Source: Lachnospiraceae bacterium (lineage in GTDB: Bacteria > Bacillota > Clostridia > Lachnospirales > Lachnospiraceae). Taken from it: a stretch of 64,000 nucleotides of DNA. The stretch covers positions 1-64,000 of the forward strand of contig JAFLSX010000002.1 of assembly GCA_022510705.1 (NCBI GenBank), in the 5' to 3' direction. Shown here piece by piece: positions 24,797-48,462 of this stretch (positions within the stretch are counted from its first letter, which is position 1; each line of letters starts with the position of its first letter). The notes beneath the pieces are model-generated. The model was not told the DNA's origin. It made no database searches and worked only from the letters and a program-made list of their open reading frames with translations. Position numbers and translations under genes: made by a program.

Positions 24797-24848
24797 CGGG
24801 AAAATTGTCCTTTTTTGAAAATTTCTATAATTTTCCTACGTTTTTATC

Positions 24849-24877
24849 TTGTAATATGTGCCAAAATTGAATATAAT
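24849..24877 (+). promoter_or_regulatory. Promoter of candidate 6S-like RNA
   Basis: TTGTAA-17 nt-TATAAT in an intergenic region. Confidence 0.65.
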
Positions 24878-24883
24878 AGAGAT

Positions 24884-25110
24884 AACCTGGAATGCACGAT
24901 AACTCTTGTTCATTTTGAACCTACATTTACTTTAAACGGGATTCCTATATTGTCATGTGGCTGTCAAGCCTCCACTCGAAAGAGGATTGCAGGGGAAGGC
25001 AAAAGCATGATTGCGGTCACCCACCTAGCATTGCTAGGAGTCAAAAGACAAGAGCCGGCATTTTGGGGTACATAAGATAAAAAAGAGCAGCTGAGCGGCT
25101 GCTCTTTTTG
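24884..25110 (+). ncRNA. ssrS: Candidate 6S RNA
   Basis: No CDS; terminal helices AATGC/GCATT and CTCTTGT/ACAAGAG; apical CAA-CCTC...GAGG-TTG arm; CCTAGC-ATT-GCTAGG hairpin in the 3' half; promoter upstream and AAAAGAGCAGC/GCTGCTCTTTT terminator downstream; about 190-220 nt. Confidence 0.68.
25079..25109 (+). terminator. Terminator of candidate 6S-like RNA
   Basis: AAAAGAGCAGC-TGAGCG-GCTGCTCTTTT perfect 11-bp stem with T tract. Confidence 0.85.
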
Positions 25111-25133
25111 CAAAATAATGGCTGGGAGGGAAA

Positions 25134-27023
25134 ATGCAAAGAAAAGCCATCTTATGTATTATTGGAATCCTATTATTGTTTTTGATCGGTTTAGCGGGGG
25201 TATCCGAAAAAAAGAAAATAGAGGAGTGGGAGCCGGCGGAGGAGAAAGAAGAACCCCACCAGCCGGTGGTGGAGATATTTACCAATGTCTATTTGACGGA
25301 CCTGACTAATACATATCTTTCCTTTTTCGACGGTGAAGAAAAAACCTATCCCTTGGCGGAGAACAAAGTGTTAAAGGATACGGCATTGGGACTGGAAGGA
25401 AGTCTTGTGGATATTACCGTTACAGACGGGGCTATCACGGGGGCAGATATAAGAGGATCGGAAAAAGTGAGCGGGAAAGTGCTGGGAGTGGAATCCGGAA
25501 AGGGCGTAGAACTGGAAGGTTTCGGCTTTTTGCCTTTTTCTGAAGATGTACGTTTTTTTATGCTTTATGGAGGCTTACGTTTAGGAACTGAGCAGGATAT
25601 ACGAATCGGATATCAATTTGCGGATTTTGTACTGGAGGATGGAAGAATCTGCGGCGTCTTACTGACTGCGGATGAAACCATGGAATATATACGAGTACTG
25701 ATTAAAACGAGTGATTATGCCGGAAACTATCATGAGGCGGCAGCATTGTCCTGTGACGTGGATTATGTGCTGCTCTATGAGAGGGACGGAGTTGTGAGTG
25801 AGGAAGCTTACAGGGCGGGTGAGAGTATTACAGTGACACCTGAGAGCATATATTTTGCAGAGGGATCTACCGGACGAATACAGATTATTCCATCGGCCCT
25901 CACCGGTAAGATCAGTCTGTTATCCGTAACCAGGAGTCAGGGAACACCGGCTTATAGGGGGACTCTGGAAATCTCTTGTGTGGATGGGAGATTAATTATC
26001 ATCAATGAATTGCTTCTGGAAGAATATCTGTATGCGGTAGTGCCCAGCGAAATGCCATCGAGTTATCCGATAGAGGCGCTAAAAGCACAGGCTATCTGTG
26101 CCAGAACATATGCCTATGCCCGTATGCTGCGTCCGGGCTTGCCGGGACTTGGTGCCCATGTGGATGACAGCACCGGTTATCAGGTATATAATAATATTTT
26201 AGAACAGAACAGCACTACCACTGCGGTACGGGAAACCACGGGGCAACTTTTGTACGCTTCTGACGGCAGTCTGGTAGATGCCTATTATTATTCCACTTCC
26301 TGCGGTTTTGGTTCCGACGAACATGTTTGGAAGTCGGAATCGGCACCGGAACTTCCCTATCTATCCGCTTGCTCTATCAGTGAAGCAGGGATGACAGGAG
26401 CAGCCCTACTCTATACGGCGGAAAGTATGACGGAGGAATCTGTCTTTGCCAGTTTTCTAAAAGAACCGCCGGAATCGGATTTTGAGAGAGAAGAGCCCTG
26501 GTATCGTTGGAGTTATGAGGTGAAAAATCTGAATACTGACAGAATGTTAGAGATGCTGCAGAGCAGATATACAGTGAATAACAGACTGGTACTTACCCTG
26601 CAGGATGGGGAATATGTCAGTGTACCCATTGAGAAGCTTGGCAGTATAAAGGCCATTACTGTCTTAATGAGAAATGCGGGCGGCGTAGCGGATGAACTGT
26701 TGATTGAGAGCAGCACAGGTACATACAAGGTGATTTCGGAATTAAATATCCGGTATGTGCTGTGTGACGGTAAAACAAAGGTATGCAGACAGGATGGCAG
26801 CGAAGTGGCAATGGCAAGTTTACTTCCCAGTGCATTTTTTATTATTACGCCTGTCTATGAGGGGGAAAATATGAAGGGCTATCAGCTTTTGGGCGGCGGA
26901 TTCGGCCATGGAGCGGGGATGTCCCAGAATGGTGCCAGGGCCATGGCTTCATCCGGCTACAGTGCAGAAGAAATATTGGGATTTTTTTATAGAGACAGTA
27001 CGGTACGGAGAATAGGACAGTAA
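25134..27023 (+). CDS. SpoIID/LytB domain-containing membrane protein
   Basis: YAVVPSEMPSSYPIEALKAQAICARTYAYAR; YYYSTSCGFGSDEHVW; GGGFGHGAGMSQNGARAMA. Confidence 0.9.
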   Translation: MQRKAILCIIGILLLFLIGLAGVSEKKKIEEWEPAEEKEEPHQPVVEIFTNVYLTDLTNTYLSFFDGEEKTYPLAENKVLKDTALGLEGSLVDITVTDGAITGADIRGSEKVSGKVLGVESGKGVELEGFGFLPFSEDVRFFMLYGGLRLGTEQDIRIGYQFADFVLEDGRICGVLLTADETMEYIRVLIKTSDYAGNYHEAAALSCDVDYVLLYERDGVVSEEAYRAGESITVTPESIYFAEGSTGRIQIIPSALTGKISLLSVTRSQGTPAYRGTLEISCVDGRLIIINELLLEEYLYAVVPSEMPSSYPIEALKAQAICARTYAYARMLRPGLPGLGAHVDDSTGYQVYNNILEQNSTTTAVRETTGQLLYASDGSLVDAYYYSTSCGFGSDEHVWKSESAPELPYLSACSISEAGMTGAALLYTAESMTEESVFASFLKEPPESDFEREEPWYRWSYEVKNLNTDRMLEMLQSRYTVNNRLVLTLQDGEYVSVPIEKLGSIKAITVLMRNAGGVADELLIESSTGTYKVISELNIRYVLCDGKTKVCRQDGSEVAMASLLPSAFFIITPVYEGENMKGYQLLGGGFGHGAGMSQNGARAMASSGYSAEEILGFFYRDSTVRRIGQ

Positions 27024-27850
27024 TGCGAAAACTGTATTTGATGATTCAGGATTTTCAGAAGGAAATGAATAAAAAGAATATTAGTTCTTTTGCGGCCAGC
27101 ATGGCCTTTTTCCTGTTTCTTTCTCTGGTTCCCATGATGATTTTAGTCTGTGCGATCCTGCCATATACTTCGTTAACGGAGCAGAATCTGGTGAATTTGA
27201 TCACGGAGTTTACTGTAGATGCTTTAGATCCTCTGATCAGCAATGTGATCGCGGATGTATATGATAAATCCGTAGGTATTCTTTCCATAGCTGCCATTAC
27301 TACACTCTGGTCGGCTTCCAAAGGGATCCTGGCGCTTATTAGGGGGCTGAATGAAGTCAATGAGGTGGAGGAACAGCGGAATTATTTGATCCTTCGTACA
27401 TTGGCCTCTTTCTATACAGTTATTATGATCGTGATACTGATATTGTCCTTAGCGATCAATGTCTTTGGCAATGTACTGTTAGACATTATTCTGGCAAAAG
27501 TGCCGGAAACCCGAATTGTGGTAGATCTTTTTATGAACTTTCGCTTTTTGGCGGTATGGCTGGTGCTTACGGTGCTCTTTACCACTATTTATACCTATGT
27601 GCCTAACAAGAAGCTGCGCTTTAAAATGCAGCTTCCGGGTGCAGTGTTTTCGGCAGTGGTCTGGAGTCTTTTCTCCTATTTCTTTTCCCTCTATGTGGAG
27701 AGGACTGACAGCTTCAACACCTATGGCAGTCTGTCCATTATTGTGATCATAATGCTATGGCTGTATTTTGGTATGTATATACTTTTGATCGGTGCTCAGC
27801 TCAACTGGTTTTTTGAACCGGAGTATACAAAATGGTATGGGGAAAAGTAA
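27023..27850 (+). CDS. YihY/BrkB family inner membrane protein
   Basis: SSFAASMAFFLFLSLVPMMIL, LWSASKGILALIRGLNEV, LPGAVFSAVVWSLFSYFFSLYV; TAATG coupling with upstream CDS. Confidence 0.9.
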   Translation: MRKLYLMIQDFQKEMNKKNISSFAASMAFFLFLSLVPMMILVCAILPYTSLTEQNLVNLITEFTVDALDPLISNVIADVYDKSVGILSIAAITTLWSASKGILALIRGLNEVNEVEEQRNYLILRTLASFYTVIMIVILILSLAINVFGNVLLDIILAKVPETRIVVDLFMNFRFLAVWLVLTVLFTTIYTYVPNKKLRFKMQLPGAVFSAVVWSLFSYFFSLYVERTDSFNTYGSLSIIVIIMLWLYFGMYILLIGAQLNWFFEPEYTKWYGEK

Positions 27851-27894: not shown

Positions 27895-28176
27895 GTGTAA
27901 AGGCAAAGAAGGTGTTAGTAGCCATTCATTTTCTTTCAGAGAGAGGAAGTCACCGGCTGTAAGCTTCCTTAAGTACGGTGAATGTGTGAATTTCCCACCG
28001 GAGCCGCCCTTTGAAATTTTACGGTGGATTACAGAGCCGTGGAAGAGTAGGTTGGGACGTGAGCGTGCGTTAAACGTAAGAGCGTCTGCTTATAGCAGGA
28101 AATTGGGTGGTACCGCGGAGAATTTCGTCCCTTGTGTATGTGTGCATGATCGCACCGCATATGCAAGGGATTTTTT
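27895..28176 (+). promoter_or_regulatory. T-box riboswitch leader (phenylalanyl-tRNA synthetase)
   Basis: T-box core GGGTGGTACCGCGG (28105-28118), stem I region with candidate UUC specifier (gtgaattTCccacc), terminator CCCTTGTGTATG/CATATGCAAGGG-TTTTTT at 28129-28176. Confidence 0.9.
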
Positions 28177-45749: not shown

Positions 45750-46035
45750 GTTTAAAGTATAAGGAAATGCAGAGAAGGAGAAGAGTAACAGCGCCAGGCT
45801 GTCAGAGAGCTGCCGGTTGGTGAGAGGCAGCAGCGCAAGGCTGTGAACTGGCTCCGGAGTTCCTGTGGGGAAATGCAGATTGTGCAGAGTAGTTGCAGGC
45901 GGCCCACTACCGTTATCAGTTATAAGTGCGTGGATATTTCTTTGTAATTCGGAGAATGTTCACGAAGCAGAGTGGTACCACGGAATGGAAAGCCCTTTCG
46001 TCTCTAGAAAACGAAAGGGCTTTATTATTTTTTAG
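45750..46035 (+). promoter_or_regulatory. T-box riboswitch leader (leucyl-tRNA synthetase)
   Basis: T-box core AGAGTGGTACCACGG (TGGTACC at about 45973), candidate Leu specifier in gaaCTGgCTCcgg, terminator AAAGCCCTTTCG/CGAAAGGGCTTT with T tract. Confidence 0.88.
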
Positions 46036-46047
46036 GAGGAGAACAAA

Positions 46048-48462
46048 ATGGCAGAACCGTACAATCACAGTGAGGTGGAAGCAAAATGGCAGAAAATATG
46101 GGATGATGAAAGGGCTTTTGCTACTTCAGAAGACTATAGTAAACCCAAATACTATGCGCTGGTAGAATTTCCCTACCCTTCGGGCCAGGGACTTCATGTA
46201 GGACATCCCCGTCCTTATACGGCTCTTGATATTGTGGCAAGAAAGCGGAGAATGCAGGGTTATAACGTGCTCTATCCCATGGGCTGGGACGCATTTGGTC
46301 TGCCCACGGAGAATTATGCGATTCAGAATCATATTCATCCCAGAATTGTAACAAAAAATAATGTGGAGCGTTTCAAAGGACAGCTTCATGCGCTGGGTTA
46401 TTCCTTTGACTGGGATAGAGAGATCAACACTACGGATGAACACTATTATAAATGGACCCAGTGGATTTTTTTAAAGCTTTTTAATGCAGGACTGGCTTAT
46501 AAGAGTGAAATGCCCATCAACTGGTGTACTTCCTGTAAGGTGGGACTGGCCAATGAAGAGGTGGTAAACGGCGTCTGTGAGCGCTGTGGCTCCGAGGTTG
46601 TCCGTAAGGTCAAGAGCCAGTGGATGTTAAAGATTACGGAATATGCGGATAAATTGCTTCAGGGACTTGACAGCGTGGACTATGTGGAGCGCGTCAAGGT
46701 ATCCCAGAAGAACTGGATTGGTAAATCCACCGGTGCGGAAGTGGACTTTATCTTAAAAGATAAGGAAGATAAGCTGACAGTCTATACCACCAGACCGGAT
46801 ACTCTTTTCGGTGTTACCTATATGGTTATGAGCCCGGAGCATCCTTTCATTGACAAGTATAAAGCGGACATTAAAAACTGGGATGCAGTGGTGGCTTACA
46901 GAGAGCAAGCTGCCAGAAAGTCCGATTTTGAGCGTACCGAGATAGCCAAAGACAAGACCGGTGTTATGTTAAACGGCCTGACAGCCGTAAATCCGGTAAA
47001 CGGCAAGGAGATTCCGGTATGGATTTCCGACTATGTCCTCATGACCTACGGTACCGGTGCCATTATGGCGGTGCCTGCTCATGATGAGAGAGACTGGGAA
47101 TTTGCAAAGAAGTTTGATATGCCCATCATTGAAGTGGTGGCGGGTAGTCCAGTGGACGTGAATGAAGCGGTTTATACGGATGTTGCAAGCGGTATCTTGG
47201 TGAATTCTGAGTTTTTAAACGGTCTTTCCGTTGCGGATGCCAAGAAGAAGATTATTGAGTATTTAACCGAAAAAGGGATCGGACATCAAAAGACCAATTT
47301 TAAATTGAGGGACTGGGTATTTTCTAGACAGCGTTACTGGGGAGAGCCGATTCCTATTGTACACTGTGAAAAATGCGGTTATGTGGCTCTGCCGGAAAGT
47401 GAACTGCCTTTGGAATTACCTGAGGTGGAGAGCTATATGCCCACGGACAACGGAGAATCCCCTCTGGCCCATATGACAGACTGGGTAAATACTACCTGTC
47501 CGCACTGCGGCGGTCCGGCTAAGCGGGAGACGGATACCATGCCCCAGTGGGCGGGTTCTTCCTGGTATTTCCTTAGATATACCGACCCGAAGAACGAGAA
47601 GGAACTGGCAAGTAAAGAAGCGCTGAACTACTGGATGCCCGTAGACTGGTATAACGGCGGTATGGAGCATACCACGCTGCACCTTTTATATTCCCGTTTT
47701 TGGCATAGATTTCTCTATGATCAGAAGGTGGTACCTTGTCCGGAACCCTATCAGAAGAGAACCTCCCACGGTATGATCTTGGGATCCAACGGCGAGAAGA
47801 TGAGTAAGTCCAGGGGAAATGTGGTCAATCCTGACGATATTGTCAGGGAATACGGCGCAGATACTCTGCGTACTTATGAAATGTTTATCGGTGCATTCGA
47901 TCTGAGCGCTGCATGGTCTGAGGATGGTGTTAAGGGATGTCGCAGATTTTTGGAGAGAGTATGGAAACTGCAGGATATTCTGACGGATGAGGAAGGCTAT
48001 TCCGCTGATATGGAAACCAAACTGCATCAGACCATTAAGAAGGTCAGCTCGGATTTTGAAAATTTGAAATACAACACGGCTATTGCCGCTATGATGGCCC
48101 TGTTAAATGATTTCTACAAGAAGAATGCGGTTACGAAGGGAGAGTTTAAAATTCTGCTCACTCTTTTAAATCCTGTAGCACCCCATATTACGGAGCAGCT
48201 TTGGGAAACTGTGGGATATGAGGGAAGGATCTACCAGACCTCCTGGCCCGAGTATGACGAGGCTAAGACAGTGGAAGCCAATGTGGAAGTTGCCGTGCAG
48301 ATAAACGGCAAGACCAAGGCTACCATCCTGATTCCTAAGGAGGAAGGGAAGGAGAAGGTACTTACAATGGCAAAAGAGGTATTGGGAAGCAAGCTTTCCG
48401 GCACCATTGTAAAAGAAATCTATGTACCAGGCAGAATTGTCAATCTTGTTGTAAAGCCTTAA
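46048..48462 (+). CDS. leuS: Leucyl-tRNA synthetase
   Basis: [23 protein letters not shown] (HIGH), [16 protein letters not shown] (KMSKS), editing domain. Confidence 0.97.

Follow-up and report, generated by a model that had tools for sequence, protein, structure and literature searches.

6S RNA is a small RNA that mimics an opened promoter and keeps RNA polymerase bound when cells are at rest. In B. subtilis, 6S-1 RNA templates product RNAs with the sequence 5′-GUUCGGUCAAAACU, and the product RNA of the A. aeolicus 6S RNA is 5′-GUAGGCCCC... (PMC12005410). Lactic acid bacteria show, as hallmarks, GG at positions 5–6, AA at positions 9–10 and an adenine adjoining the start (PMC8414754). In free B. 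subtilis 6S-1 RNA, a hairpin is already formed in the 3′ central bulge, opposite the 5′ bulge (PMC8876501). Among Clostridia, the Lachnospiraceae species Clostridium phytofermentans has a 6S RNA listing taken from Rfam (PMC5171806), and the 6S RNA of C. acetobutylicum has been confirmed by Northern analysis (PMC3879012).

An ordinary 6S RNA gene (ssrS), a routine member of this known family, is found in a 64,000-nt stretch of a Lachnospiraceae draft genome (the window), in the gap that separates an M24 aminopeptidase gene from a SpoIID-domain gene (Table 1). The gap, put at 340 nt in an earlier note made from the sequence, is real, with the flanking ORFs 337 nt apart (24797–25133). When the whole window was scanned against Rfam 15 at gathering thresholds, three matches were obtained, among them RF00013 (6S/SsrS) on the plus strand, which scored 71.1 bits (gathering score 46.4) with an E-value of 4.9e-12. 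This search, proposed in the earlier note as a check, covered the model end to end (positions 1–187 of 187). The note had also allowed for another family scoring better; with the thresholds opened, the other Rfam families at this place reached 14.9–18.3 bits, far below their own cut-offs, and were rejected as chance-level matches, mostly on the terminator hairpin. The span that it gave, 24849–25110, holds for promoter, transcript and terminator together, while the 6S match proper is shorter. Its reading of the locus as a likely 6S RNA was borne out by the RF00013 match, the relatives, covariation, conservation of promoter and terminator, and synteny, as described below.

Table 1. Features of the 6S RNA locus (positions in the window)
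Feature	Position	Strand	Details
Aminopeptidase P-like ORF (Peptidase_M24)	ends 24796		upstream side of the 6S gap
Sigma-A type promoter	24849–24877	+	TTGTAA 24849–24854, 17-nt spacer, TATAAT 24872–24877
6S RNA	24884–25073	+	5′ end placed from the −10 position; RF00013 match 24881–25073
Outer closing helix, 5′ strand	24886–24898	+	CCTGGAATGC.CG; partner 25056–25067
Inner closing helix, 5′ strand	24903–24918	+	CTCTTGTT plus TTTTGA; partner 25041–25054
5′ central-bulge template motif	24912–24925	+	ATTTTGAACCTACA
Apical arm	24938–25022	+	GGG 24938–24940 opposite CCC 25020–25022; RF00013 alignment
3′ central-bulge hairpin	25024–25038	+	CCTAGC-ATT-GCTAGG
Outer closing helix, 3′ strand	25056–25067	+	CG.GCATTTTGG; partner 24886–24898
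Intrinsic terminator hairpin, T tail	25080–25109	+	AAAAAGAGCAGC..GCTGCTCTTTTT, −18.6 kcal/mol
SpoIID-domain ORF	starts 25134		directly downstream, same orientation as the 6S RNA

The RNA has the rod architecture of 6S, with a closing stem, a large 5′ central bulge and an apical arm. All of the structural elements named beforehand were located: the outer closing helix contains AATGC/GCATT, the inner one pairs CTCTTGT (24903–24909) with ACAAGAG (25048–25054), and both the apical arm and the small 3′ hairpin are present. The minimum-energy fold has −55.8 kcal/mol, a modest difference from shuffled sequences (z −1.98), and the energy of a single-sequence fold would by itself say little for a structured RNA; the structure is regarded as non-chance because of the RF00013 score and the covariation in 30 homologues. 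Covariation was tested on the alignment of these homologues over 32 pairs, all from the closing helices or the 3′ hairpin. Paired cells amounted to 94.9%, whereas shuffles reached 90.6% and slid controls no more than 53%. The share of paired cells is favored by taking the structure from one member; stronger evidence comes from pairs with changes on both sides, of which there were 15 vs. 5.6 in shuffles. The covariation score was 0.197, against 0.123 (shuffles) and at most 0.083 (slid controls). In the outer closing helix, 99.7% of cells are paired and five pairs show changes on both sides, as do seven of the eight pairs in the outer part of the inner helix and three pairs of the 3′ central-bulge hairpin (97% of cells paired). 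The terminal loop of the apical arm is variable, and most of the length variation sits there. Since an open frame of 86 codons with a TTG start (24815–25075) exists over the same region, a small protein gene may be considered. Pfam gives no match for this ORF, though, and in almost every relative of the genus it is interrupted by stops or thrown out of frame by length changes while the RNA pairs covary, so that a coding ORF over the 6S RNA was rejected as not conserved and this explanation is given a negligible chance.

The 6S RNA gene is widespread among the relatives. RF00013 was searched for in 61 genomes, namely this one, 36 others from its genus and 24 from its order, and matches were found in 54 of them, including 34 of the 35 high-quality genomes (at least 90% complete, contamination at most 5%). 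The own assembly, which is 84.7% complete, is matched once; a second copy of the kind known from B. subtilis was looked for and none was seen in this roughly 85% complete assembly, and most likely there is a single 6S gene in this genome. Two copies occur elsewhere in the order: one relative (G056) has tandem 6S matches 51 nt apart (C13:340673–340848 and 340900–341075; L003 and L040), and another (G041) has two copies on separate contigs. Furthermore, scanning named genomes for the core TTTTGAACCTACATNTACTTTAAACGGGATTCCTA as an exact pattern gave more than 100 matching stretches, and among the matches listed, most records are labeled Lachnospiraceae and several Acetatifactor; the host thus very probably belongs to the Lachnospiraceae, close to Acetatifactor.

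The transcription signals expected from the earlier note, a TTGTAA-17-TATAAT promoter and a strong terminator, are both in place. TTGT and TATAAT are retained in nearly all same-genus relatives, and a terminator-like hairpin lies at the equivalent place in most of 18 same-genus rows; the hairpin is symmetrical and could serve the minus strand too. Downstream, the order 6S-SpoIID-BrkB in one orientation (24880–27850 in the window) is kept in all eight same-genus loci examined (L031–L038), with PheS further on in the seven whose extracted stretch showed it. The upstream neighbors differ: AmpP adjoins the 6S RNA in the closest relative (L036) and lies about 2 kb from it in four other same-genus loci. 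Because the RNA stands directly upstream of the co-oriented SpoIID-domain gene in this fixed order, it might be a different structured RNA, such as a leader regulating that gene. The RF00013 model scores over its full length, however, the RNA's own terminator separates it from the SpoIID gene, riboswitch and leader families are all far from their cut-offs, and of four order-level loci examined, three carry the 6S match with no SpoIID gene detected beside it (the fourth has SpoIID and BrkB homologs downstream), which together make a leader very improbable. A slim chance is given to a coupling, raised because the 6S-SpoIID-BrkB order is fixed in the genus, in which 6S transcription and partial read-through would also set expression of the sporulation-type SpoIID-domain gene in the genus and tie the sequestration of polymerase to functions in the envelope or in sporulation. 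Elsewhere in the window, a T-box leader (RF00230, 103.1 bits) lies at 27897–28135 (+) directly upstream of pheS-pheT-like ORFs and is presumably Phe-specific. Another (RF00230, 118.7 bits) is at 45763–46008 (+), upstream of an ORF (46048–48462) which, by reading its sequence alone, we take to be leucyl-tRNA synthetase-like.

It is highly probable (about 97%) that the locus is a 6S RNA gene (ssrS) whose RNA is a decoy for RNA polymerase with the housekeeping sigma factor, released by product-RNA synthesis; by analogy with the 6S family, we infer expression, polymerase binding and release. The gene's own sigma-A promoter would yield an RNA of about 190 nt, or about 225 nt with the terminator hairpin retained, and the rod with its open central bulge would mimic a melted promoter and capture sigma-A RNA polymerase, mainly at growth stop. 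When NTPs return, the polymerase would copy the 5′ bulge into a short product RNA, whose synthesis would unzip the inner helix and free the polymerase. The motif UUUUGAACCUACA of this bulge is near-invariant in the 30 sequences, and TTTTGAACCTACA within the template motif is invariant in the genus and almost so across the order. With the product RNAs of B. subtilis 6S-1 and of A. aeolicus as a guide, the product RNA is predicted to start opposite C24924 as 5′-GUAGGUUCAAAAUGAAC..., its first letters being GUAGGUUC. The predicted 5′-GUAGGUUCAAAA has GG at positions 4–5 and AA at positions 9–10, a placement in line with GUUCGGUCAAAACU of B. subtilis and GUAGGCCCC of A. aeolicus, and A24925 is an adenine next to the predicted start. 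In a constrained fold with the template blocked, the UUUUGA helix was opened and no alternative or refolded 3′ helix formed; the release step is therefore without computational support, and refolding is not claimed.

By this analysis, the draft genome gains a correct annotation and Lachnospiraceae 6S RNA gains a product-RNA prediction, while knowledge of 6S RNA itself is unchanged, the gene being an unremarkable one among these gut bacteria. Compared with the Rfam 6S/SsrS family (RF00013), the full-length model, closing stem, central bulge, apical arm, and independent promoter and terminator signals are shared, and the differences are ordinary sequence divergence and the variable terminal loop. 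The C. phytofermentans and C. acetobutylicum cases are alike in having a 6S RNA in class Clostridia, the comparison being one of presence. B. subtilis 6S-1 (bsrA) shares the 3′ central-bulge hairpin (PMC8876501) and, as a prediction here, a product RNA that begins with G and contains GG and an AAAA run (PMC12005410). The template is different, GUAGGUUCAAAA being predicted here instead of GUUCGGUCAAAACU, and B. subtilis has two 6S copies (PMC8414754), whereas one was found here.
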